The position numbers and the translations under genes are program-made. Positions 10,480 through 60,861 of a stretch of DNA of 64,000 nucleotides are shown here, one piece after another. Position 1 is the first letter of the stretch; each line of letters starts with the position of its first letter. The notes under the pieces were generated by a model that was not told where the DNA came from, did not search any database, and saw only the letters and a list, made by a program, of their open reading frames with translations. The DNA is from Mayamaea pseudoterrestris (lineage: Eukaryota; Bacillariophyta; Bacillariophyceae; Sellaphorales; Sellaphoraceae): the NCBI GenBank assembly GCA_027923505.1, contig BROI01000016.1, positions 558,001 to 622,000 on the forward strand, written 5' to 3'.

Positions 10480-10487
10480 ACTAGCGC

Positions 10488-10505
10488 GGCGCTGCAGCCT
10501 TTCAA
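10488..10505. other. Duplication junction with 9-bp microhomology
   Basis: The MORN sequence (as in copy 2, ...CTAGCGCAGCTTTT at 18274-18287) switches here to family A sequence (as at 2896-2920, CGCTGCAGCTTTTCC). Both parents share GCAGCTTTT (18279-18287 and 2902-2910). The junction reads GCGGCGCTGCAGCCTTTC, consistent with joining at that microhomology plus later point changes. Confidence 0.75.
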
Positions 10506-11245: not shown

Positions 11246-12105
11246 CGGACGGTGCAAGGTCAGTCTTTTTGAACACTTTGAATATTTTAATGCATGAATG
11301 TATACAACCTACAAGACTATATTCGCTACCCAACCGAGGGCCAAGGACATGCCTTGCAGAGCATGTCATGAACAAGAACATTGCCCCGCCTATAGCGGAC
11401 TCCAAATTTTGACAGGAACATTTTTGATTCTAAGCGATGCAGGATCTCATTCATATAAAAACAACACACAACTCTTGTACATGTAGTGTTGTCATTCATC
11501 ATTTTGCGTTCGTTCGGGTGATGCGCGTCGGCGACTATCTCGCCAGTTGTGTACCGGTGTGATGTTTTCCATCGTGTATCGGGAAGATGAGAGAGCACCC
11601 AGCGTATTGAAAAGTCGCCGGCCGAGCTATGTAGGTATCTTTGTTGTCCGTTCATTTCGCTGTTTCGTTCGGCGACCGTGAAGGCGAGCTTTTCACCTAA
11701 CTTCCGATCGACCCGATCGACCATTGGCAACAGCATCCATTCTTGCCGTTTTAGCATACAATTGGTCTTTAACATTGATTCAAAACGCTACGTAGATCCA
11801 TTAAGTAAGTCAAGCGGCAGCTAGCGCTGTGCTTTTTTTGGTCATCAGAGACGTATTGGTTCAGCTGCTGCTCCATTTGGTCGAGTTGCATCCGTTCTTT
11901 GTTCCTTCCTCGTCGGCAGTGGCAGCCGCTCTTTAACGCTCTATTCTCGTACACTTACACATCGCTCTTTATCTTATACACCAATGCAAAAAAGGAACGA
12001 CGATCGTCAGATTCGGAGTTACTACTCTTCTGGCAAGCGCAACTCGTTCTTCACATTCGGAGTCACTACTCTTTTGGCAAGCGCAACTCGTTCTTCACAT
12101 TCGGA
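11246..12105. other. Intergenic/5' leader of the FkbM-like gene, copy 2
   Basis: Counterpart of 3664-4494, no gene. Holds the same 44-bp tandem repeat at its end. Confidence 0.6.
12011..12098 (+). repeat. 44-bp tandem repeat, two units, copy 2
   Basis: Units start at 12011 and 12055, with a partial third unit at 12099 touching the ATG at 12106. Same arrangement as 4400-4487, so the repeat arose before the large duplication. Confidence 0.85.
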
Positions 12106-13266
12106 ATGAATAGTTTAATCATCAAGTATGCACTCATTGCTTGGGTCATTGGCTGTGCCATGCTTTTCCTGGGCCAGCAGCTAAGCCTGCAGCATTCGCT
12201 CAAGATTTTCCTGTGGCTGCAGCCGGATGCAACGCGTCAACAGCAATCCCTTGACAATTTTTTATTGGAGCCAGAGCGAATGAACGTATTGTATGAGCCA
12301 TCCTCCAGCGAAAAATATGTGGTGGATCATGCGGAGGAGCTGGGACTGCTCGCCGATACTTGGGAAAATATGACCATGCCGTCGTGTCGCATCTTTACGG
12401 ATCCTGCTCTGCCAAACTATAGCAGTCTCCAAAGTTATCGCAAGGAACTTGTTGAGTATACGCAACGCACCGATGATTTTGAAACTGATATCAAAGACCT
12501 TCGCATTCCTCTCAGAGCTGGTGTGAACCGAGACGAGCTCTGTTCCACTCTGGATTTGAACTTGGCAAGTATTTTTAAAGAGTCGCAGCAACTTTCGCAT
12601 GGCATTTTTGGATACGCCGAGCCATTGCTTCCACCGATGCGTCATCCGGACCTGTGCTTTGACCCTGAAAAGACGTACAAAGATCTCTTTACAATGACAT
12701 ATATGGTGCATGACTGGGAGGTCATGTGCAAACGCTTGACACCGTTTTCGCGAACTGTCTTTATTGACATGGGAGCCTCTCTGGCCTTTTACGATAGTGC
12801 CAAGAATTCACCAGCAGTCTACATTCTTGATACCTACAAGAAGTTTGGATTTGTCTTTGACCATGTGTATGCGTTTGAAATTACAGAGCAGGCGCCAACA
12901 AGTGTGTTTGAAATGGTTCCATCCAACATGCTTTCGCAGTACCATTGGATCAATGTTGGTGTCGAAGCTGATCCAGAAGCCAAGATGAATCCGCTGCGCA
13001 TGCTTTTGGAGCAGTTTACGGAGGAGGACTTTGTCGTGATTAAGCTTGACATTGACCACAGTGCGATTGAAGTGCCGTTGGCGTATCAGCTACTGAATGA
13101 CGATCGGTATAGCAAAATGGTGGATCAATTGTATTTTGAGCATCATGTCTTTCAATTGGAACTGTCACCCGCTTGGGCTGAATCCATGCAAGGAAGTATC
13201 AAGATGTCAATGGATCTCTTTGGCGGCTTGAGGAAAAAGGGCATTGCATCGCATTTCTGGATTTAA
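12106..13266 (+). CDS. FkbM-like methyltransferase, membrane-anchored, intact copy
   Basis: 386 aa. The start at 12106 is placed at the ATG right after the 44-bp leader repeats and opens a single N-terminal membrane segment (LIIKYALIAWVIGCAMLFLG), i.e. a type II Golgi/ER orientation. The C-terminal half resembles the FkbM methyltransferase fold: FIDMGAS as the SAM-binding motif I, VYAFEI as the second strand with its acidic residue, and FVVIKLDIDHSAIEVPL in place of the family's K-x-D-x-E-G-x-E strand. FkbM enzymes methylate sugar or polyketide hydroxyls. The motif variants mean activity is unproven. It lies between family A and the Pro-rich gene; a role in modifying surface glycans is inference. 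Confidence 0.6.
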   Translation: MNSLIIKYALIAWVIGCAMLFLGQQLSLQHSLKIFLWLQPDATRQQQSLDNFLLEPERMNVLYEPSSSEKYVVDHAEELGLLADTWENMTMPSCRIFTDPALPNYSSLQSYRKELVEYTQRTDDFETDIKDLRIPLRAGVNRDELCSTLDLNLASIFKESQQLSHGIFGYAEPLLPPMRHPDLCFDPEKTYKDLFTMTYMVHDWEVMCKRLTPFSRTVFIDMGASLAFYDSAKNSPAVYILDTYKKFGFVFDHVYAFEITEQAPTSVFEMVPSNMLSQYHWINVGVEADPEAKMNPLRMLLEQFTEEDFVVIKLDIDHSAIEVPLAYQLLNDDRYSKMVDQLYFEHHVFQLELSPAWAESMQGSIKMSMDLFGGLRKKGIASHFWI

Positions 13267-14275
13267 GGCATTGTCAACGATATAAACCTTTTTAAATATT
13301 GTGAAATACTTGTAAAGTAGTAAAGAAATAGCTCTTTGCGGAGATGCAAGTGTTTGTTGGCCTCCCAACTGATAAAGCTGACTGCCGATTGAAGTTTTGC
13401 TTCACCTCGTTCTCGTGTGCTCCGTCTCGTCCCGCGCCGACGGCTTGAGCTCCACCAGCAAGGACGTTCGCGTTGTCGTTGCTGTTTTTTATACGTCAAT
13501 CTCGGAGTGACAAGACTGGGATAGTTCCTGATTACTGCGGTAATTGGTGCTACTTTACAGTCGGCGACGGTTTTATGATGGACCGCAGCTTGTTTCTTTA
13601 CAAGCATGCCGCGGCAGATTGGAAAGGGATGGACCTTTTTCGACAAAAGATAATCAGCTGTGAAACCATGGCGCGCTGCTTGACATACTTGTAAAGACGG
13701 ATCAGTATGTTGACGACGCACTCCGTCACTCGAAAATGTCTTGCTTTGTAAATGCTTCTGCAAAAGACAAAACTGTATCGTTACTGGTTGATGTGCCCTA
13801 GCTGAGAGAATGTTTGCACGATTGACACCATTTTGAACGAGCATTACTTAAATCCGTAGATCCGTTCGACTTGAGTAATTAAGAAACCTTTGCCTGTTGA
13901 GAGAACCGTTGCGCGCAGGGCGACTCCGTTCATGCGCGACACAAATTTTGTCCCTGACGTGGTGAATGCAAAGTATCAATCAAGCACAAGTTCCTGAATA
14001 GCTGTTTTCGACACGGATGGACAGAGTGAACTATCGCATAGGTGAGCACAATGGCATCATCGATCAGCAGCTTGCACCTTTCCTTGTCCACCTTTTGGAC
14101 GACGACGTGCCGCTTGACGCGACAAGCTTGACACGACGAGCGAAAGCGCATCTTTGGGAAGAGGCAGACACGTGCGTATGTCCGTTTTTGGATCCGTTTC
14201 TGTATCCGGTGTCGTCGCCACTTACAAATCCGTCGTGGCCGAGATCTTTGTTCAATACAGTAAAGGTACGCAACC
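13267..14275. other. Intergenic region upstream of the Pro-rich gene, copy 2
   Basis: No gene. The last ~400 bp match 6190-6634 and probably contain the promoter. The middle (about 13440-13690) shows little similarity to copy 1. Confidence 0.5.
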
Positions 14276-16102
14276 ATGATGATCAAGCTTGCTGTTCTTT
14301 TGATTTGCCTTGCGAGTCCAGTGCTTGCTGTCCAGATTCATTCGAACAAGGATGACCATCAGCAGCAGCAAGGAATGATGATGAGCAAGCCGATCGGCAT
14401 GCGCAAGTTCGACGCGATCCGTCGGAGCTTCAATCGTTTCTTTGAGAAGAATCTCATTGAAACTATTGAGGAAGCTCAAGTTAGTATCATGGCCAATGCA
14501 AGGATCAAAGGTTCTACTGTCAGCAACAAGGCACCTTTTGGACAGGAAGAGACGAAAGAAACCGATCCGATCATCTTGCCGAAGAAAGATCCGATGACAT
14601 CGATGACAGACGGCAAAGAAACTGCCGAGGAGCTGTACGAGAAGAACTTTCACTCTGTTGTTGAAACTGCAGCAAGTCAATACGGCGAGAAACAAGCCAT
14701 GAACTCGTTGGATCAGCCTACTGACGGTGAGACTAGCGACAAGGAGGAATCCACGGCCAAACGCGCACCCTACCCGACGCCCATCGAAAACAGCAAGACC
14801 AAAGAGAGGAGCCTTCTCGAGCCAACTCCTGGAACTCCTACGCACGCGCCTTCTGTTGTACAAGATGAGTTTAGGCGTCCGATTAATGATTTTGTTTCGG
14901 TGCCACCTTCAAACTCTCCAACGACTCCTCCGACAACAGGTGAGCGTATGCATCCCAGCCTACGTCCAAGTAACACCGTGCTTTCCCCGCAAGCTTCGTC
15001 TTTCACCACAACAGCAGATCCCCCTGGACGCCCAAGCCCATTCAAGGCAGTTGGACCAACCTTTGCTCCAACGCGCGACAATCCTCGCAGCAACGTTCGC
15101 TTCAGAGCGCCGGCTCCACTACATGCATCTAAAAAAGGGAGTAAAGGCTTGTTTGCCCCTGCTAGACGGCCGGTTCCACTTTTAGAGGAAACACAAGAAC
15201 CAACATCTGCGCCAGCGAGCGACTTGCGTCCACACAGTGACTTTCTTTCCCCGCTACCTTCGCAGGCTCCGTCACTCGCATCTCGTAAAGGAAGTAAAGG
15301 CTTGTTTGCTCCGGTTCGGCGACCAACCCCACTCTTGTGGGAATCGAAAGAACCAACTTCTGCGCCAGCAAGTGACTTGCGTCCACACAGTGACTTTCAT
15401 TCGCCGCTACCTTCGCAAGCTCCGTCACTCGCAACTGCCAAGGGAAGTAAAGGATTGCTCGCTCCGATGAGGCGTCCGAGCCCACTCTTGTGGGAATCGG
15501 AAGAGCCAACTTCTGCGCCAACAAACGACTTGCGGCCACACAATGACGTGCACTTGCCACCTTTGCAAGCTCCATCACTCGCGTCTGCGAAAACAAGTAA
15601 ACGAGTGCGCGCTCCGATTAGGCGTCCAAGCCCACTACTTTGGGAATCGCAAGAGCCTACTTCTGCACCAACAAATGACTTGCGGCCACACAGTGACATG
15701 CTTGCACCACCCTCGCAAGCTCCCAGTGCAGCTTCCACAGGCGTCACCGATAGAAATGAAGCCGATCCTAGCGTCCCAAGCCCATTTGGCTCGGTTGGTC
15801 CGAATGTTCCACTGCCTTCACAAGGTAAATCACCGGCTCATCAGTATCAACCAAGTCGATCTACAACAGCAGATCCAACATCAATGAGTCAAGCTTTCAG
15901 TTCAGCTCAAACCGATGAACGGAAGCAGAATGCGCCAATCCATTATCCTACACTGGATCCGAGCGCGCCATTACCTGCGTCCGAGGACATCGCCAAGCCC
16001 TCAACACTACTTACTGGAATGCCACCTACTCCAACTGCAACGGAAGTACTTCTGCCAGAGTCCTCTACACCAAAAACGAACGGGGCGCGAGTTGAGTTTT
16101 GA
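14276..16102 (+). CDS. Secreted Pro/Ser/Thr-rich repeat protein, copy 2
   Basis: 608 aa, intact, with the same layout as the gene at 6635: signal peptide MMIKLAVLLICLASPVLA, charged N-terminal part, four ~50-aa repeats, Pro/Ser/Thr-rich tail. Differences are mostly single residues and a few codons inserted or lost in multiples of three, which suggests both copies remain under protein-level constraint. The last ~15 residues differ more (TEVLLPESSTPKTNGARVEF against copy 1). Confidence 0.8.
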   Translation: MMIKLAVLLICLASPVLAVQIHSNKDDHQQQQGMMMSKPIGMRKFDAIRRSFNRFFEKNLIETIEEAQVSIMANARIKGSTVSNKAPFGQEETKETDPIILPKKDPMTSMTDGKETAEELYEKNFHSVVETAASQYGEKQAMNSLDQPTDGETSDKEESTAKRAPYPTPIENSKTKERSLLEPTPGTPTHAPSVVQDEFRRPINDFVSVPPSNSPTTPPTTGERMHPSLRPSNTVLSPQASSFTTTADPPGRPSPFKAVGPTFAPTRDNPRSNVRFRAPAPLHASKKGSKGLFAPARRPVPLLEETQEPTSAPASDLRPHSDFLSPLPSQAPSLASRKGSKGLFAPVRRPTPLLWESKEPTSAPASDLRPHSDFHSPLPSQAPSLATAKGSKGLLAPMRRPSPLLWESEEPTSAPTNDLRPHNDVHLPPLQAPSLASAKTSKRVRAPIRRPSPLLWESQEPTSAPTNDLRPHSDMLAPPSQAPSAASTGVTDRNEADPSVPSPFGSVGPNVPLPSQGKSPAHQYQPSRSTTADPTSMSQAFSSAQTDERKQNAPIHYPTLDPSAPLPASEDIAKPSTLLTGMPPTPTATEVLLPESSTPKTNGARVEF

Positions 16103-16537
16103 GTTTAGCAGCTATATGTGACGTTGCATAAGGCATGGTTGCGCCAACCATGTTTGCAAATAGATCGCAAAACAATAGAATACAGTATTTTTAGACTAAC
16201 CAGTGCATTATTTTTTGCTTGCTACGGTACTATCGGTATGCGCCGTCGCTTGTGCTGATATTTTCTATGCGCATATCACGTCATTTGGATTCTCCGTTCC
16301 ACTATTCGTATCCGTAGCGTCGTGGAGATGTGCAACTGTTGAAAGTCAAAATTCCTGCCACAATCAATTGCGCTACACCAGGAGAAAGCGGGGGCATTCA
16401 TTTGCAATTGCCACAATCAATTGCGCCACACCAGGAGAAAGCGGGGGCATTCATTTGCAATTTAATCATCCGCATCGGTTTTAATAAAGTGATGAGTGTG
16501 TTAACCTTTAAACTCAATAAGCTTTTGCGGAGTACTC
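16103..16537. other. Intergenic, convergent gene ends, copy 2
   Basis: No gene. Contains the 53-bp tandem repeat listed separately; the matching region in copy 1 has only one diverged unit. Confidence 0.5.
16357..16462. repeat. 53-bp tandem repeat, two units
   Basis: Unit begins GCCACAATCAATTGCGC at 16357 and again at 16410, each ending in CATTTGCAATT. The two units are nearly identical. Copy 1 of the large duplication has a single related stretch near 8720, so this arose after the large duplication. Confidence 0.85.
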
Positions 16538-19034
16538 CTACTCGTAGACCTCGCCATCCCGAAGAATGCACCTGCGCATGGTTCCATCTGGTTGGAACTC
16601 GGTATAAGTTCCATTTACAAACTCATCATCCGCGAAGGTTCCATCGCGCCATCGACCGTCGCTCAATCTGAGGTGGCCGGCGCCGTGAAAGTTGTAACCT
16701 TCAAACTGACCATCATAACAACTGCCGTCGCTCCAAATATATCTACCGTGTCCCTTGAGCATGCCATTTACAAATGTACCTACGTAACAATCGCCGTTGC
16801 TCAATCTGAGTTTGCCGGCGCCTTGGAAACTGCCATCAGTAAACTCGCCTTCATAACAATTGCCGTCGCCCATATTTGCCGGGCCCTTCGAGTTTGCCGT
16901 TCAAAAAGATGCCGTCGTACGAATTGCCCTCAATCCATGTAACTTTGCCGTAGCCATGAAGGAACTTGTCTGCTTTAAACTCGCCTTTGTACCAATCACC
17001 GTCGTTCATTGAGAGTTTCCCTTGCCCTTCGAATTTGCCGTTCCAAAAATTGCCCTCGTACGAATTGCCGTCGATATATGTAATCTGGCCATATCCGTTA
17101 TGGAGCTTGCCTTCTTTAAATTCGCCTTCGCACCACCCGCCGTTGCTCAATGTGAGTTTTCCTTGCCCCTTAAATTCGCCATCTACAAAGTTGCCCTTGT
17201 ACTCATTACCGTCACACATCGACTCGCCGTAGCCATGTGGCTTGTCTTGTCGAAATGTTCCTTTATACCACTGATTGCTGCTCCAAGTAAATTTCCCTTG
17301 CCCCTCATACATGCCATTCACAAAGCTGCCCTTGTAACAAGCACCGTTGGTCAAAGTCAATTCACCGTTGCCGTGAAACTCCCCGTCTTTTATTTCACCG
17401 TTGTAAACAGTTTTACCATCGGAGTCGACATAATGTAGCAGGCCATCACTCATCTTGTCGTACTCCCATAATCCTTTATACCCACTGCTGCCGTTGTCCT
17501 GTAACTGTTCGCCGTAGCCATGAGCAAATCCGTTGTAATAGTTACCCTGGTAGATAGTTCTGCCATCGGAATATTCAAAGCGGCCCTGACCGTGCATCAG
17601 TCCATTGCGAAAGGTACCTTTGTATGATGATCCATCCTCGTATCGTTGTTCGCCTTTCATTATCTGGCCATTATTTATTTCGCCGATTGAGATGCGCCGC
17701 ATGTCATCCTCCAAGTCTTTCATCTCGTCCACCTCTATATCGTCCTTGGGTTTGCTGCCGCCTTCACTTTGGCAATCCATACCCGGCTGCCCTCCCTTGG
17801 GGACAAATTTACCTAACTTGATCCAATCTTCCAAGCAATACTTATCAAGAAAGCTCTCCAGCGTCCACTGGTCTACAGCGGCTTGAGTCCGCTCGTACTT
17901 AAACATCCTTTTTGCAACCCCAAGCACAAACGGTCTAAGCTGTGGACTCAGCTTTTCAATTTGTTGAGTATTCATACGAGATGTCATCTGCTTTACCAAA
18001 TGATTGATCTGCTGTAGCTTGTCGAGCATCGCTCTTCTCGTGCTGTCGCTATGTCTCCACGAACCCTTGATCAGCTCGCGGCGATCGGACACATCCAACA
18101 GGATCCACCAGAGAACTATGCACTTGCTAAACAAGGAGCGATCTGGGCCGATGAACTTGTATAGATTCGATGGAATCGACAGAATAGACTTTTCGCCTCG
18201 GTCAACCTTTTCAAACTCCTTCTTCAGCTCTTCGTCTTCGAGTGCAAATAGACCAGCGTCACTCACGGACATACTAGCGCAGCTTTTAAACGATGGTCCT
18301 TGATTGGTTATTGCTGCTAGACTTGTCTTAGTTGTTGCGAATGTAGTCGCCTTGTTGATGCTGTGCGAAGCAACTCTGTGAGACACACACTGTTTCGCAG
18401 CAGGGCCATTCCGCTGCGCTTGAGCGTCGACGACGACGGCATCCATGTCTTCATCAATATAGTCGAGCATATCTAGCTCGAAATCGACTGACGGTGGGGG
18501 TGAATGACACATTCTTGCCGAGTTGTTATCACCCATAGTCTTTGGCGAAGGACTAGGACATAATTGAGCGACTTTCTTGGCAAGAGATATTTTCTCCGAG
18601 ATTTTCGGCAGCGGCAGCTCAGGCTTCTTGGTGTCGTTCAAAGTCGAGCAGTACTTCGTACTATCGCCATTGTGGTGCATCTTGGAGCTGTCAATATCTT
18701 CCGCAGCCTCGTTCTTTTGCTCAGATTCGCGAACCATGATGAAATCGTTCATGACATTGTTGAAATTGTCTGTGAATACTCCCTGGTCGAGTCCAGTAAC
18801 CATGATAAACTCGTTCAGGACTTCTTCGTTTTGCTGAATGTCAAGACTCTCCCATTCCTCCATCAGAATTGACTGACGAGTCGAATGGGCCTCATCATCC
18901 GTATCGAACGAAGAAGGCTGCGTCGTCGACGTCATCGACTCTTGCGATGAAATTGATGTCCTTCGTCTTGGAGTAAAGGGTCTCTCAGGTGCAGCAATCA
19001 TGCGCTTCTGCGGTGTAGCTGATCGAGTCGACAT
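16538..19034 (-). CDS. MORN-repeat protein, copy 2, full N-terminus, frameshift near the C-terminus
   Basis: Start at 19034 (MSTRSATPQKRM); the open frame to 19088 lacks an ATG. Residues ~1-250 are an acidic, Ser-rich region found in no other copy at full length. Then follow MSVSDAG, the conserved helical domain (~260-400) and a long MORN array. At about 16870 five bases present in copy 1 (inside KYIWSNGN) are missing, so the main frame stops at 16851, giving 727 aa. The next frame stays open to 16538 and carries about four further MORN units ending in TMRRCILRDGE, like the copy 1 tail. Either the C-terminus was recently lost or the assembly has an error. Divergent from the family A gene at 19342 across 307 bp. 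Confidence 0.75.
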
Positions 19035-24111: not shown

Positions 24112-26130
24112 TCAACGGCCACATTCACCAACGCCTTTGCAGCATGACTCACTAAACTTGATTGCAAATGTCCTTTCCCATCTACCGACGAACGCGTCTC
24201 TATCCTCGCCGCAATGTTTTTTGAAACAACGCGCGACGGGCGCCAACGTTCGAGCAAAATATTTCTTTTCCTTCGCATCAAGAACAATTCTTTCGACGCC
24301 ACCAATCGCCTCGACTCTATCATGCAGCTCCAGCAAGGCGTCAAGTTTCTGAGGAAGTGACTTCAACTGAGCAATCGTCTCTCGCCCCGCAAAGAAATTT
24401 GTTGGCGGCGTCGCATTCTTTGCGCGTTTGCTTGACGACGACGACGACGGTGGCGTAACTGCTGCAACCTTCTCTGCCTCAATCAACTGCTGCTGCTTAT
24501 AAATTGATTCGACGTGCCTTTTGTATCGCAAGCAAATGGTTTTGCAAGGATTACGAAGCTCCACTGGAACAGTCATGAGCCATTGCTCGAGGCAATCTCC
24601 TTCGACAGTCGACCACTGAAACTGCTGCGCCTCAATTACCAATGAGCGAACGTTGCGCGCCACGCCATGCGGCACTTTTAGTTGCAACACAAACTCGTCG
24701 GCGAGCTGGGCGAGTGATTTACCGGCATGCTCTTGGGGACTTGGTTGCGCGCCACCATTGTGAACGCCTCTGTATGCCTTGGCAAGCTCGTTTCCTGGGC
24801 TTGGATTGATTTCATTGGATGAAACAAGTGTATTGGCGTTCCCCAAATACAAGACGGCTTCTTCATGGCGCATGTGGCGAGCGTCGTATTGGCATATTCG
24901 CAAGTCCGCCTTTTGAAACGCCGCTTTCAAGTAAGCACCTTTGCGGAACGAGTGCATACCGAATCCCTTGCCTGTCTCAGGACCAAATAATTCAATAAAG
25001 CGCTCTTTTAAATACTTGAATATCGTTCCGTAGTCGAGTCGTTTAGTGCCTCTGTAGTCTCCGTCGTCGCGCCTCGTGTTTGCCCCGAGCGACCTGAGCG
25101 ACTGAAACAACCAACCTTTCTTAAGGCCAAGCAAATGCACCAACAGCAGCAGATGGCGGACTGGGCAGATGTCCGGATACTCATGGTCCGCCCAAAGATG
25201 AAAGTACTGTCCACGCGAGTCGGTCTTTCCGCGTATCTTGAGGCAGACACCGTTGATTCGTCCGTTTGCTTCGACGTGGAAGGACGACGCCTCAAAACTC
25301 TCCATTGATATCGTCAGCAACTCGTCGTCTGCTCTCAAATACAAGTTGATTGCAATCAGAACGGCAACCCAAACGCTCAAACCAACAAGTCCTTCGTAGA
25401 CAAGCAACGCGCCAAGTTTGCGAAGCTGCCATGGTGCAATGGCACAGGATCCGTGTACCTCGTAGTCCTTGTCGAGCAACTGTTTTTTTCCGTTGGCGAA
25501 TTTGAAACAATGTGTCGGCTGTCCAATACGTTTGATCTGACGGTTGCCAAAGTGTTCATTACATCCATGGCTATTTTGGTCGACGCGGAAAAGATTCAAA
25601 CAATCAACACACTTTTCCTTGAAAGAATCCTGCGCCTCGTATCCAATGGACATATGGAGCCATACAATGGCTGAGGCGAAGGCCTTCATGCTATGGTTAC
25701 TCTTCCATCCACCATTGCAACGAATTGGTTCATTGAAGTTAGCGTCACGGAGAAGCATCTCATCGTCGTCACGCAAAAAGGTGTTTGTGTCGAGTTTCTT
25801 CCAACGCAGAAACAACACCAGCGACTCAACCTTCATGGAAGGAACCTTGCCAAGACCAATAGGCCTCGGCAGAAGGAGAACAAGCATTGATTCCCAGTCT
25901 CCAATCATTGCGAGAAACCGCCAAAGCATCGAATAGTAAGAGAGGTAAGAAGTGATCTGAGTCTTCTCGGCCAAGACTGGTCCGTTGGTGTAGTGCCATA
26001 CATTACAGCGGAAGCGAAACGGAGGAGGCGACAGAGTGAATCCATTATGTGCCGCAGAAAGAACAAGCTCATTGTCAAGCTTGCTCTGCAGATCAGGGTG
26101 CAGAACGCACCATCCGCCGATTGAAGCCAT
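24112..26130 (-). mobile_element. Crypton-type tyrosine recombinase (DNA transposon)
   Basis: One uninterrupted frame of 672 aa from the ATG at 26130. The catalytic core of a tyrosine recombinase is visible: R266 in LYLRADDELLTI, a candidate Lys near 302 (RGKTDSRG), H393-x-x-R396 in GMHSFRKGAY, a His near 419-422 (ARHMRHEEA) and the nucleophile Tyr428 in AVLYLGN. HSFRKG is typical of Cryptons and relatives in stramenopiles. The C-terminal ~200 residues are low complexity (poly-Ser, KRAKN) followed by a basic helical region. No reverse transcriptase lies nearby, which argues against DIRS/Ngaro retroelements. Cryptons lack terminal inverted repeats, so the ends are not placed here. The open frame suggests a young insertion. 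Confidence 0.7.
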
Positions 26131-35963: not shown

Positions 35964-38780
35964 CTATATTGATGGAATGATGCTTTCACCGGGAGCAAAT
36001 ATATCACCCGGCCGGTCAATTAACTTTGACTCGGTCTGTGGACCAGTGTTCAAACTCTTGGCGTTTCCGTATATTGCCACTTTGCTTTCCGCTTCGGGAG
36101 TTGCAAGGCTCGATGACGACGGTATCAAGTTGACGAGTGAAGGCGGGACCAGTAGCGCATCAATTTCGTAAATCAAGTCTTGCTTGGTCAAGTAGAATCC
36201 TGCCCCAGTACCCCTTGCTTCGTTGAAGCGCAGCAACTTGCCACTTGCTCCAGATCGCGTTACTGTCACGGTGATGGATTCTCCCTGCATTGTGAGATAT
36301 TCAAATGTGCCAAAGTCAAGCTCTGAAAACGGAATCAATTCCACAATGACGTGATACAAAAGCACCTCCTCCAGCACGGCCTGGTTGCTTGGATTAAGCA
36401 AATAATCAATTGTTTCCTGCGGCGTGTTGGTAAGTGCTATGTTATTGGGAGCGCAAAGGGTCGAGTCGACAAGCATGGCGAGCTCGCGCTGTAGCTGCGC
36501 TGTTTGAAAGAGCGCACTCAGCTCGCTAAAGGTACTTGGCAAGGCTGCCAAGGCAGTTCTTGGGTTTAAAAAGAACCAATATGGCAAGATGGCAGCGTCA
36601 ATCTGGTGGAGGACGCCATTCGTTGCAATTGTATCAGCAGCAATCACGTTAATGGGCACTTGCTTTCCAGCTGTGACACTCGGGGTGACTAGCTGGATGG
36701 ACCCGTTGGTCGTAACATCAATAACAATTTGCAGATTGTTTGTCATGGTAATTGATAAGCCATCGACTAAGCTGTTCGCAAGCAGCTCTTGCGTAGCGAG
36801 GTGGTATTGAGCCAAGTTTGTAGCATGCAGATCGTACTGCGGAGTCGTCAGCTTGTTGTAGTATGCATCGCCAACGGTGTTTTTCAAGGCTGCGTTTCCT
36901 GGTGCAAACAGTGTGAATGGACCACTATCAGGATTATTGAGTGGGCCGCTAACTCCAGCAACCTCGAGGAGCGTCGCGATGCCGGTGAATCTTGGTGTGG
37001 TGGAAACAATTGTGAAAATTGTTGACGTTTGAGTTGCAGGAGCTCGCGTTGGTCCAGGCGCGGGCGATGGAATTGCAAAGTCGGGCGGAAACAATACTTG
37101 TGGCGACTCGTATAGGACATTGTACTTGGCCAAGTAAAAGACACTGGACCGAATGTTGTTGAAGAACAAGTCAATGGTACCCCCTGGTCTACGCTCGCGA
37201 CGACTCATGACGATGGCATCGCCCTGGACGGATGTAAAGCTTGTATCTTCAAGTGGATAGTCGGTAAAGTCAATGACCGAATTGATAATGTGATACTCCA
37301 GCACTTGACGAAGAACTTCCGGATTGCTAGTCAAGTAAGTCAACGTCCGTGCAGGTAGTGCGTTGAACGCTGCATTCGTCGGAGCGATCAGAGTCGTAAA
37401 GGCCGATGTAATCACGTCCTGCAGTCCAGCCACCTGAATCAAGTTTAGCAAGGTGCTGTACCGGTTTGGAATCTCTTCCATGACGCCATTCAAATTTAGA
37501 AATACCCAGTACGGCGACAATACTTCAGGAACTCGGTGCAAAATACCATTTGACGCCATCTGCTCTCGTGGAAGCAACAAGACGTTTGATGTTTTCCCTT
37601 GACTGGCAGAAAATGTTTCCAAGTAAACGTTGTTGTTCGTAACGTTAATTGAAATTGGCTCGTTGCCGAGCATATTTAGCTCGAGTCCATTCGTCAAGTC
37701 GCTCGTTTTATAGGCAGACGTTTCCGTAATGTGATTGGTCAACAAGTTTTGCAAGTGCAGTCCAAAGGCTGAGTTTGTGATGAGTAGCTGCGAGTAGTTT
37801 GACCCAAGTCGTTCAAAAGCATTATTGTTTGGAGCAAAGACGGTGATTGGATCTTGCATTGCGAGCAAATCCTGCAAGTCAGCCGAAATGACGGCTTGTT
37901 CCAGTGTACTCAAGTTATCAGCCGCCTGGATCAAGTTCCAAACTGTTTGCGGCAGACCGACTGATGGTGCAAGTATTGGTTGGATATTTGGACGATTAGT
38001 GGGACTTTGCGATTGCGGACCTTTGGATGGCGTTTTTGTCGGCCTTGGTGTCGGACGTAGCGTTGGTTCTGGAATTCGAGGTCCCTGTGATGGTCGAAAT
38101 GTGGGACGAAGAGTTGGCGCCGATACTGGAGGTCTTGCAGACGGCGGAAGGATCGGTGGCGTAGTGGGTGTTTTCGTCGGCCTTAGAGTAGGTCGAGGAG
38201 CTATGGGAGCTTTTGCTGGCGCCATTGTCGGTCTCTTGCTCGTACTAGGAGACTTGCTAGGACGGGGAGTAGGTTTTTTTGTAACTGGTCGGCTGGTTGT
38301 CGGACTTTGGATTGGCATGCTAAAGCTGCTTTCAATGGCTCCACTGCCACTTCCAATCGTCAAGATTTCGTCCCATGCGAGTACATCCTTGTTTTCACCG
38401 TCAGCCAAGGATGCAGAGAAGCTTGCAAACTCGTCGCTCATGTTGTGGCTAGACGACTCCTTGATGATGGATGGAGGTGCGAAAGTGATGGCATCGGCAA
38501 TGGACGACGACGGAGCAGGAAATTGCGTATCCACTTGCCGCTGCTGCTCCGGAGCAACCGTATCCGGTGCATCAGCATAGTACGACGTACTTAGTGTGTC
38601 GAGAAAGTCTTCGTGCTTGACAGTGGTCTTGGAAGATTCGTCGGTGGTTGCGGATGTTGCTTGGTTCCCTCCGACCAGTTTCCTCGTTCGTAGCAAACCC
38701 TGCTGAAGCTGCGCCTGCGACGAGGTAGTAGCGGCTGCAAGCCAAAGCAGTGGGAGACTGTAGCGTGAGTTGAGCTGCAT
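35964..38780 (-). CDS. Secreted four-fasciclin-domain protein with Pro/Thr linker
   Basis: 938 aa from the ATG at 38780. Signal peptide MQLNSRYSLPLLWLAAATTSSQA. Residues ~60-170 are Ser-rich. Residues ~170-280 are an 'RPT-x-P' linker (RPTKTPTTPPILPP, RPTFRPSQGP). Then come four FAS1 domains, recognisable by TVFAPNNNAFERL, TTLIAPTNAAFNAL, FTLFAPGNAALKNT and TLCAPNNIALTN and by the YH-type second motif (LEYHIINSV, LLYHVIVEL). Domains 1 and 3 resemble each other (ending YWVFLNL/YWFFLNP), as do 2 and 4, so the protein is an A-B-A-B duplication. FAS1 domains mediate adhesion and matrix contacts. No C-terminal membrane segment is visible, so it is probably a matrix protein. Confidence 0.85.
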   Translation of the reverse strand: MQLNSRYSLPLLWLAAATTSSQAQLQQGLLRTRKLVGGNQATSATTDESSKTTVKHEDFLDTLSTSYYADAPDTVAPEQQRQVDTQFPAPSSSIADAITFAPPSIIKESSSHNMSDEFASFSASLADGENKDVLAWDEILTIGSGSGAIESSFSMPIQSPTTSRPVTKKPTPRPSKSPSTSKRPTMAPAKAPIAPRPTLRPTKTPTTPPILPPSARPPVSAPTLRPTFRPSQGPRIPEPTLRPTPRPTKTPSKGPQSQSPTNRPNIQPILAPSVGLPQTVWNLIQAADNLSTLEQAVISADLQDLLAMQDPITVFAPNNNAFERLGSNYSQLLITNSAFGLHLQNLLTNHITETSAYKTSDLTNGLELNMLGNEPISINVTNNNVYLETFSASQGKTSNVLLLPREQMASNGILHRVPEVLSPYWVFLNLNGVMEEIPNRYSTLLNLIQVAGLQDVITSAFTTLIAPTNAAFNALPARTLTYLTSNPEVLRQVLEYHIINSVIDFTDYPLEDTSFTSVQGDAIVMSRRERRPGGTIDLFFNNIRSSVFYLAKYNVLYESPQVLFPPDFAIPSPAPGPTRAPATQTSTIFTIVSTTPRFTGIATLLEVAGVSGPLNNPDSGPFTLFAPGNAALKNTVGDAYYNKLTTPQYDLHATNLAQYHLATQELLANSLVDGLSITMTNNLQIVIDVTTNGSIQLVTPSVTAGKQVPINVIAADTIATNGVLHQIDAAILPYWFFLNPRTALAALPSTFSELSALFQTAQLQRELAMLVDSTLCAPNNIALTNTPQETIDYLLNPSNQAVLEEVLLYHVIVELIPFSELDFGTFEYLTMQGESITVTVTRSGASGKLLRFNEARGTGAGFYLTKQDLIYEIDALLVPPSLVNLIPSSSSLATPEAESKVAIYGNAKSLNTGPQTESKLIDRPGDIFAPGESIIPSI

Positions 38781-43210: not shown

Positions 43211-46198
43211 CTACAAACCTGGGAGAGTCATCCCACTCGGCACGAGGACCTCACCAAGCTGAATGCGACCACCATATTTTGATAAGAACATGAAGCCAAT
43301 TTGCGATACCCCATTGAGGGAGATTGCAAAGTTGTTGCTATCGATGCGAAGAGTCACGCTGTCGCCTTGTGCAGTAGCCACATCCACGTCTTGGTTGACG
43401 GGGAACTCAATCGGATTCAAAATAATGGGCAAAAAATGATACGAGAGAATGGATTTAAGGTCCTCCACGTTGGCTGCATCCGTCAAGTAATTAATAGTCT
43501 CGTCCGGTAGGGCTGCAAACGCGTCATTGTTCGGAGCAAGCAATGTGGTGCCAACAGAAGTGGCGATGGTCTCAGTCAAGCCGGCGAGTTCAATTAAGTT
43601 GAGCAGAGTAGAAAATCTACTACCTTGACTGATGACGTCGATAATGTTCTGATAGTACCAAATTGGCGTCAGAATCGCATCCGTCAAGAAAATGGCTCCG
43701 TTGGACGTGAGGATGGGTGGTGATCGGACTGGAATTTCCTCAGCAAGCCCAGAATCCGAAGCAATTGTCGCAATGAAAGCGTCACCAGAGTCGTCAACTT
43801 TGACAGTGGCCTGTTCCCCGCTGTTAAGTTCAAGCACAGTCCCATCCTCCAATGTTTCCAACGTATCTTGTACCGTGATATGGTTCGACGCCAAGCTCTG
43901 CAGGTGCAAGAAATACTGTCGGTCGGTAACCAAAGTTTCAAGGTACGCCGCATCAAAGTCGGCAAACGCTGATACCACCGGAACAAACACAGTCTGAGCC
44001 GAGTTACCGGCCAGACGGTTCAGAATTTTGGCGTTAGTAAGAACGGTCAGAAAGGAGGTGGCATCTACATTTGATATAATTTCCTCAGCTATATCTCGGC
44101 CCGACACGCTTGGAGTTGGTCTTGAGGTTGGTTCAACTCTGGGAATGCTAGACGGTCGCGTAATTGGAGGAAAAGTAGGACTTGCCACTGGTGATCCGAC
44201 TGGCGTTGTCGTCGGAGCGGGCGACAGTGCGGGTGCCAAGGTTGACGCCGTTGGTGATGCGGGTATCTCAAAGCCTCTGGGCAGCAACACTTCTGGCGAC
44301 TCGAAGCGAATACTGTATTTGGTCAAGAATATACTGCCGACACTCGTCACTCCGTTGAAAGTCGTCGCTGCAGTATTTTCGGCGGATCGCTGCACGAGCA
44401 CCACAACATTGCTGCCTTCCACTGACTTGACCCTTACGCTTTGACCAAGCGGATACGCCAACGGGTTCACAATCTCGGGCAGCAAGTGATACGTCAGCAC
44501 TTGCTTCAAGGCATCCACATTACTTGTCAGATACTCGGTCACTTCTGGTGCCAGAGCGGCAAAGGCTGCATTATTCGGAGCAATCAGAGTCGTGCCTTCC
44601 GTGCTTGCCACAATTTCCATCAAACCGGCTTGATCCAGTAGCGTCAAGAGCGTTCCGTACGTGTCCGACTGAACCTGCATCAACGTGATCAAGTCCAAGT
44701 AGTACCAGACTGGCAGCAGCAGCGACTGCACCTTGTACAAGACGCCATTGGTCGCCAACTCGCCGGAGGATGGCAAGTTGACAGCATCGACGTAGTCAAA
44801 TGTTGAGGCAAAGGTGGCAATGACAAAACTGGCATTGTTGCTTGACTCAATGACACTTTGTTCCTGCGAAAGCATCGTTAACGCTTGCCCATTCTGAAAC
44901 GTTTCGTAGCTACCTTGCAACGTAATGTGATTATCAACAAGACTGCGCAAATGCAAAAAGTAGTCTTCATTCTCCAGTAGCATGGTCGAGTAGGTATTGC
45001 CAAGCACGTTGAAGGCATTGTTTCGGGGCGCAAATAGGGTTTGTGGAGTCGACGTGTCAACCACATTTTGGCGACCCGCCGCGTCAATGAACGTTACAAA
45101 TTCCGATCGGGAAGAGTCGTTTTTGATTAAATCCAATAGCGACTGGTCTGTTGGAGTCGACGGTGCTGTCGCAACTGGAGCGTTCGTTGGCGGAGCTGCA
45201 ACGGGCAAGCTGGAGAGAATAGTTGGAAAACCAGCGGGTGCAGTCGTCGCAAGGTTTGTCGGTCGAGGCGTCGGTAACGGCGCCGTAGGACGAGTAGCCG
45301 GAGCTGATGTAGCAACGGGAGCAGCCGTCGGCGCAATCACTGGAGCAGGCGTAGCAATAGGGGCGAGCGTTGGAGCCGCCACTGGACTTGGAATTGGCAT
45401 ATTTGACGGAAATGCAACTGGAGTAGCGACTGGAACATTAGTTGGGACGGCAACAGGAGCAAATGTGACGGCTACTGGAGTTCCAGTGGGGACGCTAACA
45501 GGAGCAGTGGTGACAGCCACTGGAGCAACAACTGGTGCATTTGTGGGAAGAGTCACTGGAGCAGCGGCAACTGGAGCATTCGTTGGAGCCGCAGCTAGAC
45601 TTGGCCGCGGCGTTTTCGGCAAATTTGTAGGACGAGGAGCCCTCGTGGGTCGAAGCGCAGTGTCGGTTGGTGCTACACTGGAGGCTGGAGCAGTCGTCGT
45701 CGTTGATGTATCAGTTGGTCGAGGCGTTTTCGGAGCTCGCGTTGGACGCACTGGAGCGCCAGTGGCTGGGAAAATGTCGGTTGGTGCATTCGATGCTATC
45801 GCAACTGGAGCGTTCGATGCACCATTCGTTGGACGGGGAGTAGTTTCCACTCCCGTTGGACGAGTTGTTGTTTCCAAAGGTGTGGTGGGGCGTGGCGTAG
45901 GATTCGTTGGAAACAAGTCGGTGGGAGCCGCGCTGCCTTCAGACGCTGGTCGAGGAGTCCGCGATGGTCTTCTCGTAGGACGCTTGGTCGATGATGATGC
46001 CGTTGGAGGAGGTAGGGAACTCTCCTGCAGCAACTGCTCCCATGACAAGCTGCTCGTGGTAAATTCGTCCGCGACGGCTTGACTCATGGTCATGACGTTG
46101 CGCTCATTTTGGTCGCGTTGGCGCAAGGAGCCATCGGCCTTGGCCAATGGCGACTTAAGTAGCAGCAAGAAACTTGCCGCCTTGATGAACCTCATCAT
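43211..46198 (-). CDS. Secreted four-fasciclin-domain protein with long Pro/Thr/Ala linker
   Basis: 995 aa from the ATG at 46198 (MMRFIKAASFLLLLKSPLAKA, a signal peptide); the frame is open to 46360 without a leader. Residues ~70-380 are a long linker of RPT, TNAPVA and APTNAP motifs. Four FAS1 domains follow, marked by TLFAPRNNAFNVLG, TTLIAPNNAAFAAL, TVFVPVVSAFADF and TTLLAPNNDAFAAL, with YH motifs LTYHLLPEI and LSYHFLPII. Order is again A-B-A-B. It is a paralogue of the protein at 35964-38780 with a longer linker. Divergent from the SET-domain gene across 254 bp. Confidence 0.85.
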   Translation of the reverse strand: MMRFIKAASFLLLLKSPLAKADGSLRQRDQNERNVMTMSQAVADEFTTSSLSWEQLLQESSLPPPTASSSTKRPTRRPSRTPRPASEGSAAPTDLFPTNPTPRPTTPLETTTRPTGVETTPRPTNGASNAPVAIASNAPTDIFPATGAPVRPTRAPKTPRPTDTSTTTTAPASSVAPTDTALRPTRAPRPTNLPKTPRPSLAAAPTNAPVAAAPVTLPTNAPVVAPVAVTTAPVSVPTGTPVAVTFAPVAVPTNVPVATPVAFPSNMPIPSPVAAPTLAPIATPAPVIAPTAAPVATSAPATRPTAPLPTPRPTNLATTAPAGFPTILSSLPVAAPPTNAPVATAPSTPTDQSLLDLIKNDSSRSEFVTFIDAAGRQNVVDTSTPQTLFAPRNNAFNVLGNTYSTMLLENEDYFLHLRSLVDNHITLQGSYETFQNGQALTMLSQEQSVIESSNNASFVIATFASTFDYVDAVNLPSSGELATNGVLYKVQSLLLPVWYYLDLITLMQVQSDTYGTLLTLLDQAGLMEIVASTEGTTLIAPNNAAFAALAPEVTEYLTSNVDALKQVLTYHLLPEIVNPLAYPLGQSVRVKSVEGSNVVVLVQRSAENTAATTFNGVTSVGSIFLTKYSIRFESPEVLLPRGFEIPASPTASTLAPALSPAPTTTPVGSPVASPTFPPITRPSSIPRVEPTSRPTPSVSGRDIAEEIISNVDATSFLTVLTNAKILNRLAGNSAQTVFVPVVSAFADFDAAYLETLVTDRQYFLHLQSLASNHITVQDTLETLEDGTVLELNSGEQATVKVDDSGDAFIATIASDSGLAEEIPVRSPPILTSNGAIFLTDAILTPIWYYQNIIDVISQGSRFSTLLNLIELAGLTETIATSVGTTLLAPNNDAFAALPDETINYLTDAANVEDLKSILSYHFLPIILNPIEFPVNQDVDVATAQGDSVTLRIDSNNFAISLNGVSQIGFMFLSKYGGRIQLGEVLVPSGMTLPGL

Positions 46199-46452
46199 CC
46201 TATTTCGGTCGGCGCTTTGTTGTTTGAAAGATTGTAATTCCATAGTATGACAATTTGAAACGGTAGAATGCGTTACATCGCCAAAGGCGATCCTTGCGAG
46301 CAAGCCGAGCCCTGAAAGTCGGAACGGTACACACTTTAGTCTTGGTGCGACAAGCCGCATTCAGCGTGCCCGACCGCGGCCGCGCAACTCCCCATGACAA
46401 CAAAATCCTTCCTCGCTGCTTCGTCGGCAATGCTAGTGAAGCAATAACAATA

Positions 46453-57459: not shown

Positions 57460-59224
57460 TCATTTTATTTCCAAGTCGGCTGCCTTTGGGACTCCCAAAA
57501 CATCCAACTCCTTGTTGCAGTTCCACATGTAGCATGGATCAGGATATCCATGCGGTCCTTTGCAACGACTCGTCTTGTGGTGGATCGACGACCAAGTGAC
57601 GCAGTCGGAAGCGCCAGTCGTCAACGACGTTCCAACGGTAAAGGTGAGCCCACGCGTAAAGGCATATGCAAGTCGCGTCAACAACTTGCGGCCTAGCTCA
57701 TCGTCAGGCAAGTATGCCACGCGACGAGTTCCGCTGAATGACCTTCCGGGGTTGCTGCGGCGAGTGAAAACATAGACGAAGGCGTTAGGTGCGATCATTT
57801 TGTAAGAGCGCGAAGCTATGCAGCGTTTCAAAAACGTACGGATGATAATTCTTTTGAGCGCCGCTCGGAATGTTATATGTTATCACAATTGACTGTGTTG
57901 AGCTGTATCCTTCGCAGGCAATCCAGGGATTTGTTACAATCTTCATCGAGCCCGACGGCATCTTGCCTTGTGGCTCCGCAAAGTTGGCGCAGCAGAGCGG
58001 ACAGCGACCCGAATGGGCAGCCGCACTTAGTATGCAAGCGTAATGAAACTGGTGGTTGCAACCAGACACTTGGCCGACTTGTTGTGTTTGGAGCGGAAGG
58101 AGACAAATAACGCAGCCGCTGTTTATAACCGAACGCAGGTCGACCGCAAGAATTTTGTCCCGCACACTCAAGGAGAGAGAGTCTGGAGCAGTGTACATAA
58201 TGGTCTTGCTTGGTAAAGGTCGAAAAAACTGGCCGACAAAACTTGACAAACACGGAAACCCTATCCATATGCGGTGAACAGTATTGGCGTCCGCCTGCGA
58301 GTTAAACATGAGATCAATGAGGCATTGAATCTTATCTCGATATTCAAGGATTTGATCCTTCGGGTCATATGTGCAATGCATGAGAGGGACGCACTGCGCT
58401 GATGAGCGAACTACAACGAGAGGGCCCCATTGAAATGTATATGCATTCGACACCCATCGGCTAGTAGTTCCTTTCAACCGAGCGACGAGCAGACAGACTG
58501 GACCAAAGCCTTGGTTGCGATATGTAGTGTGGTCGTCGCAAAAATATATACCCTCACCGAAAGATGACCCATTTGAGCTTGCAACAATATTCCGGGAGCT
58601 GCGATCCTTTGGAGTCAAGAGCCCATACTTTTGGATGTTTATCAACGAGGATTGCGTCGTATAATGAAACGATAAGTCTATTCGAGTGCTGATTTTCATG
58701 GACTTGAATTCCTTCTGCTTCTCGAGCATGCGTGCGACCAGTTCGATAAGATCGTTGTGTCCATTATCGCTCATGAGGCTGATGTCAGCTGTATAACGCC
58801 CATAGCCTCGCTTAAGCAGCACGTGCAACTCAGCGAGGCAATGCACAAACGCTGCAGCCTTTGTCGACAAGGTTTTTGCATCAAATTTGGCTTGTAACCA
58901 CTTGGCAAATAGACTATCGAGTTCGATAGATGGATCTGTCGGACTAGGTGTCGTTTTATATGTAAGCATTGGAGTCATGCGACAACCAGCGGACATGCAG
59001 AACCCCTTGACTTTTTCGGCCGCCTTGTCCAGGACACGTAGGGCCACATTGGCGATGGAAACAATGAAGTCAAGCATACAAAACATAACGGATACTAGTG
59101 AGCTAGAATGCGTTGTTTTGGAAAGCACAGGAATGATGATTAATGCTTCCACTTTCTTGAATTGGCGTGGGAGACGGTCGAAAGTTGTCACGTTTCGCGG
59201 TAAAATCCAAATATCAAACGTCAT
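57460..59224 (-). CDS. PARP-like ADP-ribosyltransferase fused to Deltex RING-DTC E3 module, two exons
   Basis: Exons 59224-57840 and 57754-57460; the 85-nt intron (GTACGT...CGCAG) lies in the DTC domain and splicing restores HPNPGRSFSGTRR. 559 aa from the ATG at 59224. Residues ~45-70 are hydrophobic. Residues ~180-255 resemble a PARP catalytic fold: FHYTT (H187, HG-T position), QKYGLLTP, then SSFGEGIYFCDD (Y227). Residues 371-411 are a RING (CVIC, CNHQFHYAC, CPLC). The DTC domain follows: SIVITYNIPSG, TRRVAYLPDDELGRKLL, GLTFTVGTSLTTG, SIHHKTS, HGYPDPCYMWNCNKEL. Deltex RING-DTC proteins bind NAD+/ADP-ribose and ubiquitylate ADP-ribosylated targets or ADP-ribose itself. Having both activities in one chain is the notable point. 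The third PARP catalytic residue was not located. Confidence 0.8.
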
Positions 59225-59772
59225 ACCGGTAGTCACTTAGTTTCTCATATCGATGCAGCCTTTTAGGGCGTCGATGCAGCTCTGCTCTAGTACTGGCATG
59301 CGATATACTAAGCCATAGACAGACGTTGTAACAGTTAGAGCAAGCCAAAGCTTTCACGTGATGAGGATTGAAAAATTGCAGACAGCTGTCGCTTGAATGA
59401 CACGGAGTGCTCCAATGACATCAAGAATGGCACAGATGAGCAAAGAGGCATGTTAAAGGCTATGAAGAATAACAATGAAGCATTCCAATTACGATGTGAT
59501 ATTAACCGATAATGGTTGTAAGCAATTCGTCATCTCGTGGTTTATTCGTCGTCTTTTTTGTTTTCGCGGGCAAAACAAGTTGTGTCACACCGTTACTCAA
59601 ATCACAACATTGGTAAAGCGCGGGCAGCAACTCGAAAAAATCTCGAAATGCGCTCTCCGTGGCTTGCTCATCATGGAGAATCACTTGTCCCTCATTCTTC
59701 GCTTAAACCTGGCAAACAGCGAATACTACATGCAGATTAATACTAGAACAATCTGCGAGAGCGCCTTCACTA
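59225..59772. promoter_or_regulatory. Divergent intergenic region
   Basis: 548 bp between the Deltex-like and BTB genes; no gene or motif recognised. Confidence 0.4.
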
Positions 59773-60861
59773 ATGATATCTACGATTCTGGGACGAGCGA
59801 GCGCGAAGAGAGTAGTATGGATTACGGATTCGCCCGCCGATGAGACGGTAAAATTTGCGCAAGAGAGCGTGACGAGTCTGAAATTGGAGGCAGAGGTAGC
59901 GACCGAGCCGAAGGGAACGGATGTTTTCGTGCTGAACATTGGAGGCAAGGAGACGGCGACGACCTTTCGCAGCACTCTCACAATCATCCCAAACAACATG
60001 CTAGCAGATAAGTTCAGCGGTCGCTGGGATCACAACTTTCACAGAAGCAAGGATGGCAGCTACCTTGCCTTGATTGATCGCAAGCCCGAGCTCTTTGTGC
60101 CACTCTTAGATTTTTTACGCGATTTGAGTGTCATGACTCCTCATGACAAGCAATCGCTTCCACCAATGACACCGTCGTTCACCAATCCTTTAGACGAATC
60201 ACAGTTCCGCCGCATGGTTGACGGATATGGTTTGACGACTACTCTATATGCGTACGATATCTACGAATTTGGCAGGCTGTTGCTAACGTGGAATTGTCGC
60301 ACATGTCTATCGACAGAATGCTCTGTGATGGACGTTTTATTGGAGAGAGATCCTGCACCGGAATGTCGCGCTCGCTACTTTTGTTTGGATCGCCCAGAAG
60401 GATCGCTTGGAGTCAGTCACGGTCGTAAAGTGAAAGCTTTTGAGGTGTTGGTGGGGCGTAATAGTATGTGCCATGTTGGTTGGATCCATCGAGGCACGTT
60501 CTTTGGCAATAGTATGATGGAACTTGAAGCCGAGACCAGAGATGTTCTGTTTTGCTGCAACATTAACCGAGTTGGTTACAAGAATGGGCAAGGCCGGTCA
60601 ATTGATTGCAAGTTGCCCAAATTACACCGCGACGATGAATTCCGAATCCATTGCAACAAGCGAAATGATACCGGCGAGTTGGAATTTCGAATTGACGGCG
60701 TTCCTATCGTTGCATCAAACAACATCCTGAAAGAAAATCAAGTAAAACATTTGTGTTTTAGTACATTGTTTGGTTGGTCAGTTCCTCAAGATTATGAGAT
60801 GATACCCTACCTTTGTGTGACGGCTGGCGTGTGTCGGTTCTCGGATATCGAACTGGAGTAA
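59773..60861 (+). CDS. BTB/T1 (KCTD-type) domain protein
   Basis: 362 aa from the ATG at 59773. Residues ~50-115 form a T1-type BTB domain: VFVLNIGGKETATTFRSTL, NNMLADKFSGRW, GSYLALIDRKPELFVPLLDFLR. This is the tetramerisation fold of potassium channel N-termini and KCTD adaptor proteins. No membrane segments follow, so it is not a channel. The C-terminal ~170 residues (KVKAFEVLVGRNSMCHVGWI, DVLFCCNINRVGYKNG, LEFRIDGVPI) read like a SPRY/B30.2-type sandwich with low confidence. BTB-adaptor proteins often recruit substrates to cullin-3 ligases; that would be thematically close to the neighbouring E3 gene but is not shown. Confidence 0.75.
   Translation: MISTILGRASAKRVVWITDSPADETVKFAQESVTSLKLEAEVATEPKGTDVFVLNIGGKETATTFRSTLTIIPNNMLADKFSGRWDHNFHRSKDGSYLALIDRKPELFVPLLDFLRDLSVMTPHDKQSLPPMTPSFTNPLDESQFRRMVDGYGLTTTLYAYDIYEFGRLLLTWNCRTCLSTECSVMDVLLERDPAPECRARYFCLDRPEGSLGVSHGRKVKAFEVLVGRNSMCHVGWIHRGTFFGNSMMELEAETRDVLFCCNINRVGYKNGQGRSIDCKLPKLHRDDEFRIHCNKRNDTGELEFRIDGVPIVASNNILKENQVKHLCFSTLFGWSVPQDYEMIPYLCVTAGVCRFSDIELE

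Follow-up and report, generated by a model that had tools for sequence, protein, structure and literature searches.

A diatom gene that probably encodes a Deltex-type E3 ubiquitin ligase carrying its own divergent ADP-ribosyltransferase-like domain

In animals, the Deltex ligase DTX3L is used together with separate poly(ADP-ribose) polymerase family members, PARP9 or PARP14. A locus of the diatom Mayamaea pseudoterrestris raises the question of whether a single algal chain combines an ADP-ribosyltransferase (ART) of the PARP type with the RING and Deltex C-terminal (DTC) domains of such a ligase, and whether it would then write ADP-ribose-ubiquitin marks by itself, as a first-pass annotation proposed. 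The locus was analyzed within a window of 64 kb from contig BROI01000016.1, which is the whole stretch of DNA considered and to which all positions below refer. The gene was modeled as two exons:

57840..59224, minus strand: exon 1, 461 codons plus 2 nt, with the N-terminal region, the ART-like domain, a linker, the RING and the first part of the DTC (open frame, spliced model)
57755..57839, minus strand: predicted intron of 85 nt, GTACGT...CGCAG, canonical
57460..57754, minus strand: exon 2, second part of the DTC, C-terminal tail and stop codon

The spliced product is 559 amino acids long, starting from an ATG at 59224 and ending with a stop codon at 57460, with a single intron; the coordinates and protein length of the first-pass annotation were right. 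An in-frame stop lies four codons 5' of the ATG. Two observations favor the 85-nt splice: the DTC profile is then matched at positions 1-133 of 133, and the alignment with DTX1 and DTX2 passes the junction, at HPNPG, without a gap. Reading through the intron leads to a stop after ...NDRT, with a short unrelated tail and loss of the DTC catalytic residues, and intron retention as the main form was rejected since it costs the DTC its catalytic His and Glu. A single uninterrupted frame of 461 codons takes in the ART-like segment, the RING and the start of the DTC (its first 43 residues of 132); therefore, there is no stop between the two halves, and a transcript of its own for the first half was likewise rejected. 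A tblastn search of the protein against the window recovered the gene and, besides it, a single weak stretch (E, 0.11); the window therefore contains no further copy. It is very improbable that two adjacent genes, or a pseudogene, have been taken as one here. The gene model is a prediction from the sequence, and the codon signal in the ART segment is weak, with the coding frame ranking first among the three forward frames and not above the reverse strand (statistics trained on five ORFs of the window), whereas the stop-free frame shared by the ART-like segment, RING and DTC start and a lone intron that restores a full-length DTC speak against such an artefact.

The Deltex half is the more clearly defined of the two:

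57992..58114, minus strand: RING-H2, residues 371-411 (Pfam zf-RING_2, 2e-7)
57490..57970, minus strand: DTC, residues 419-550, split by the intron (Pfam, 7.1e-43)

By homology, the C-terminal half is a Deltex module, consisting of a RING followed by a full-length DTC. The RING ligands read from the sequence are C371, C374, C389, H391, H394, C397, C408 and C411, and the DTC profile is matched over its full length in the spliced protein. The relatives of this half in the PDB are DTX1, DTX2 and DTX3L, with alignments to 6y22_A and 6y5n_A, and the DTC is 47 to 48% identical to those of the three human proteins. The RING and DTC of the first-pass annotation are thus confirmed by Pfam and by structural relatives. 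In the alignment with 6y22_A, in which the DTX2 residue number is the chain residue plus 387, H520, H530 and E544 correspond to DTX2 His582, His594 and Glu608; His594 is a residue that we take to belong to the ADP-ribose pocket. From structural and mutant data, His582 and Glu608 of DTX2 are proposed to act by activating the ADP-ribose 3'-OH (passages of PMC7615817). The matches of H520 and E544 therefore indicate that the algal DTC bears the catalytic pair used by the human enzymes to ubiquitylate ADP-ribose. Both features of the Deltex family, the C-terminal order of RING then DTC and the equivalents of the catalytic DTC residues His582, Glu608 and His594, are present. WWE repeats, which mark the DTX1/2/4 subgroup, were not found by Pfam in the whole protein at an E value of ≤10; DTX3 and DTX3L are likewise not known to have them. 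Pfam found no macrodomain, KH or RRM at the same threshold, NCBIfam matched only rad18, on the RING and below threshold (E, 0.56), and a PADLOC scan gave no match. The algal protein resembles human DTX1, DTX2 and DTX3L in its C-terminal RING-DTC and its catalytic His and Glu, but differs from them in having no WWE, KH, macro or RRM domain by Pfam at this threshold and in that its chain includes an ART-like segment.

That segment, located in the first half of the protein, presents the harder part of the question:

58526..58738, minus strand: sub-threshold Pfam PARP (PF00644) match, residues 163-233, profile positions 31-94 of 199
58364..58681, minus strand: ART-like core, residues 182-287, aligned with PARP12 and PARP15, where H187, Y227 and L269 take the positions of the H-Y-[ILE] triad

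PARP was the top Pfam family for the region in all five inputs covering it, with E values of 0.024 (whole protein), 0.0051, 0.0025 (residues 158-289), 0.1 and 0.0046 and scores of 14.6, 16.8, 17.8, 12.5 and 16.9 bits, respectively, none of which reaches the curated cut-off, 26.7 bits. One slice also gave three weak matches to unrelated Pfam families (E, 0.063 to 0.24). Two controls, the PARP12 and PARP16 catalytic cores, scored 101.3 bits each against the same profile, and the segment is therefore far from a typical PARP. Of the three families that the first-pass annotation had named for an HMM search, RING and DTC were thus recovered and PARP reached only a sub-threshold score. A profile built from the catalytic domains of five PARPs (PARP1, tankyrase-1, PARP12, PARP15 and PARP16, from PDB chains) scored 15.4 bits on residues 159-289 and 12.9 bits on the whole protein. 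When the slice was shuffled 20,000 times, no shuffle reached 15.4 bits (19,156 were reported; best, 11.7). The hhalign comparison gave a probability of 87% and a P value of 3.6e-6, and in a repeat the score was 38.4, compared with 20.3 for the best of 200 shuffles (none reached it) and with 7.0, 11.5 and 13.6 for three segments elsewhere in the protein. The tested slice was picked with the location of the match already known, and the local alignments of both the profile and hhalign span 20 to 22 columns around GxGxYF (SSFGEGIYF), so the result amounts to homology at the level of motifs and not to a full domain match. In the multiple alignment with PARP12 and PARP15, the segment shares F-H-x-T, G-x-G-x-Y-F, an A-R strand and a terminal P-L-V-V-V...Q-x-x-P, at 22% identity to PARP12, and the Q-x-x-P-...-Y after the triad is common to the segment and the aligned PARPs.

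By these comparisons, the segment has a distant similarity to PARPs that is above chance. The claim of a PARP-like segment holds to that extent and falls short of the Pfam cut-off. It would be mistaken to place the segment directly before the RING, as some 80 residues (288-370), for which Pfam gives no match, separate the two. The union of an ART-like segment and RING-DTC in a single polypeptide, in turn, is supported by the one open frame together with the profile evidence. We consider it unlikely that the segment is not an ART and that a chance GxGxYF occurs in an unrelated or lineage-specific N-terminus of an ordinary Deltex ligase. Such a chance match would fit a signal packed into 20 to 22 columns and a phmmer search of the PDB with 216 amino acids from the PARP-like region that gave nothing at an E value of ≤10. 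It would also fit with the lack of a usable fold model, since two single-sequence AlphaFold models had mean pLDDT values of 34.3 (exon 1, 461 amino acids) and 33.4 (ART core, 152 amino acids). Foldseek with the latter single-sequence model gave 84 matches at an E value of ≤10 and none at ≤0.001, with no ART among the 50 of these 84 that were listed. However, no shuffle of either series reached the observed scores, PARP was the best Pfam family in every input, and the FHxT and Q-x-x-P motifs agree as well.

Taken as a whole, the gene product is probably an E3 ubiquitin ligase of the Deltex type that also contains a divergent ART-like domain of the PARP type, and the question becomes whether that domain would be active. 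H187, Y227 and L269 form an H-Y-L triad by an alignment at 22% identity, of which HMM and hhalign anchor only the Y block. H-Y-L is the triad of the active mono-ARTs PARP14 and PARP15, as described in passages of PMC9189837. From Y227 to the third motif there are 42 residues, compared with 64 in PARP12, 68 in PARP15 and 72 in PARP16 (counted on the sequences). In place of the nicotinamide-binding motif HG[TS], which occurs as HGT or HGS in all five PARPs of the profile, the segment reads F-H-Y-T, with Tyr188 instead of Gly; this Gly is presumably the nicotinamide-binding glycine. The two hydrogen bonds on which nicotinamide binding depends are provided by a glycine and a serine (passages of PMC9189837), and the inactive PARP13 reads YAT at the HG[TS] place (passages of PMC7955679).

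On these motifs, it is doubtful whether the ADP-ribosylating half is active. H187, Y227 and L269 line up with an H-Y-L triad but are accompanied by HYT and by a short stretch before motif 3, and the likelihood is therefore divided between an active mono-ART and a pseudo-ART like PARP9. An active, self-contained writer, in which the ART would attach mono-ADP-ribose to a target, to ubiquitin or to itself for the RING-DTC to ubiquitylate, is a tentative possibility within the preferred explanation. It draws on the alignment of H187, Y227 and L269 with the triad of PARP14 and PARP15 and on the intact catalytic residues of the DTC, and is weakened by the replacement of the HG[TS] glycine, the shortened stretch and the sub-threshold Pfam match. 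The other form of the same explanation, a scaffold with an ART fold but no catalysis, as in PARP9 (Q-Y-T) or PARP13 (Y-Y-V), is a substantial possibility, still short of probable. The segment would then bind ADP-ribose, NAD or a partner and steer the RING-DTC onto ADP-ribose made by other enzymes. The change of HG to HY, at a place where the inactive PARP13 has lost the motif too, agrees with this, as does the pairing of DTX3L with PARP9, which is listed as inactive in passages of PMC9189837; since PARP9 is itself a degenerate ART, a noncatalytic fusion is a natural alternative. In contrast, the alignment keeps the triad His and Tyr in the algal segment, whereas PARP9 and PARP13 have lost the His. 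We regard a PARP9-like pseudo-ART as about as likely as the self-contained writer. The latter, as first proposed, is thus possible: its ubiquitin half keeps H520, H530 and E544, and its ADP-ribosylating half is doubtful because of HYT and the 42-residue stretch.

A mechanism can be proposed on this basis for the Deltex-type ligase with its ART-like domain. The RING would engage the E2~ubiquitin conjugate. ADP-ribose, either free, NAD derived or protein linked, would sit in the pocket of the DTC. His520 and Glu544 would activate the ADP-ribose 3'-OH to attack ubiquitin, in the manner proposed for human DTX2. The ART-like domain, which lies in cis in contrast to the separate PARP of animals, would either mono-ADP-ribosylate targets through its H-Y-L triad or, with the HG glycine lost, act as a pseudo-ART that positions a substrate or partner. 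The sequence itself establishes the gene structure, the RING, the DTC with its catalytic residues and the similarity to ARTs; the ART fold, the binding of NAD, any activity and the substrates are predictions in this scheme. It is doubtful that a single algal protein would write mono-ADP-ribose and then, in cis, esterify that ADP-ribose with ubiquitin.

Compared with known systems, the protein is similar to the complex of DTX3L with PARP9 (and PARP14) in that a Deltex RING-DTC is joined with a PARP-type domain, which in PARP9 is a degenerate ART. However, DTX3L and PARP9 are separate animal proteins with macrodomains, and the algal protein is one chain with no macrodomain by Pfam. The ART-like segment shares FHxT, FGxGxYF, Q-x-x-P and an alignable H-Y-L with the H-Y-I/L mono-ARTs PARP12, PARP14 and PARP15 and with PARP16 (FGEG), but differs from them in having HYT rather than HG[TS], a shorter stretch before motif 3, a low identity (22% to PARP12) and a score below the Pfam cut-off. 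PARPs joined to E2-like UBCc and to U-box domains (the U-box in Dictyostelium) are described in passages of PMC2964712 and PMC4245714, the latter also including UBA and RWD. These fusions likewise combine an ART and ubiquitin modules in a single protein; the ligase module of the algal protein differs in belonging to a family whose substrate is ADP-ribose itself.

Searches of phage, plasmid, viral-contig and genome-contig sets, with eukaryotic genome collections outside their scope, listed no ART-RING-DTC protein. Searches with exon 1 gave 8 stretches in genome contigs and 5 in viral contigs, with relatives in neither; by tblastn, exon 1 matched only two phage records (E = 1), both on the PARP-like segment, and no plasmid at an E value of ≤1. 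The phage matches count in favor of the ART-like reading, as the one record examined shows weak PARP/Tpt1/Arr similarity of its own. In viral contigs, a DTC search gave 9 stretches, none confirmed, and the alignment searches for DTC and PARP gave 47 and 46 stretches, respectively, with no relatives. DNA patterns for PARP motifs gave 6, 17 and 9 stretches in viral contigs, which make 31 loci (L004-L034) as one locus was shared. Their frames look by eye like phage ARTs, and the best Pfam match of one fragment (L007) was ART-PolyVal (4.9e-5, below its cut-off). These frames were left out of every fold and significance test; trial alignments with the phage ART pieces looked misaligned, and the pieces were kept out of folding. 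A 137-amino-acid hypothetical protein of Bacillus phage vB_BsuM-Goe26 (L001:1498-1911) is weakly similar to PARP, Tpt1/KptA and rifampin ADP-ribosyltransferase (E, 0.05 to 0.08) and is possibly an unannotated small ART.

The DTC alignment search of genome contigs gave 16 stretches with one relative, from Endozoicomonas. This is a 1,040-amino-acid protein of Endozoicomonas cretensis (OODV01000002.1, L002:3277-6399) in which Pfam matches a macrodomain in two stretches (4e-15) and a DTC at the C-terminus (7e-53) but no RING at an E value of ≤1. By its domains, it is an ADP-ribose reader combined with a Deltex DTC in a bacterium. Among 398 genomes sampled from the phylum of Endozoicomonas, a DTC occurred in E. 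cretensis alone, and the PARP family was found in none of 95 genomes of its order, a count in which the controls were undetected too.

The surroundings of the algal gene and its N-terminus include the following:

59039..59098, minus strand: hydrophobic stretch, residues 43-62, mean hydropathy of 2.12 over 19 residues
55917-57029, same strand, downstream: NAD-dependent epimerase gene (Pfam Epimerase, 1e-43)
59773-60861, divergent, upstream: BTB_2 protein gene (Pfam, 1.8e-7)

Residues 43-62 are possibly a membrane helix or an amphipathic helix, and residues 1-183 alone had no Pfam match at an E value of ≤10. A 66-amino-acid open stretch 5' of the gene (59502-59702, minus strand) might be an extra 5' exon; it had no Pfam match at 0.01. 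Neither the epimerase nor the BTB_2 neighbor suggests a functional link. Elsewhere in the window, a tandem segmental duplication at 2895-18283 (2895-10490 versus 10487-18283) has three pieces of 85.5, 91.5 and 92.5% identity and similar ORFs in its two copies. A 672-amino-acid ORF (24112-26130, minus strand) without a Pfam match at 0.01 contains an HSFRKGAY...R-H stretch, which we take to be reminiscent of tyrosine recombinases (Crypton/DIRS-like). Two large proteins with proline/threonine-rich regions, at 43211-46360 (minus strand; four fasciclin stretches, 2.6e-46) and 35964-38780 (minus strand), resemble each other by eye.

No publication joining Deltex, an ADP-ribosyltransferase and a diatom was found in the literature searched. 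The word Deltex is absent from the main text of the PARP surveys PMC2964712 and PMC4245714 and from PMC9503650 and PMC7955679. An ART-Deltex fusion is not mentioned in the portions considered of papers on ADP-ribose-ubiquitin and Deltex (PMC7615817, PMC12687431, PMC13224862, PMC10810221 and PMC8424196), and no such protein appears in the titles or abstract openings among the matches listed for PARP, Deltex, DTC and RING fusions. Passages of PMC2964712 report no PARPs in the diatoms Phaeodactylum tricornutum or Thalassiosira pseudonana, passages of PMC4245714 report at least two in Thalassiosira oceanica, and a Deltex homologue, named by KEGG orthology, is given for the brown alga Ectocarpus in part of PMC3879662. 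The occurrence of an ART-like segment and RING-DTC in one chain is a real observation, and the architecture appears, on the evidence available, to be a new variation on known ART and ubiquitin-module combinations; a precedent that is unpublished or exists only as an annotation is quite possible.

The hybrid mark ADP-ribose-ubiquitin was described only recently, and most work on it has used human enzymes. Joining an ART-like domain to RING-DTC in one protein outside animals would argue, as a "Rosetta stone," for a functional link between the two activities, and it would offer a small recombinant protein for a joint test of writer and ligase. It would also carry the pathway to algae, in which PARPs are reported to be patchy in passages of PMC2964712 and PMC4245714. 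If the bifunctional enzyme acting in cis is true, the ADP-ribose-ubiquitin mark would be made outside animals by a dedicated protein.
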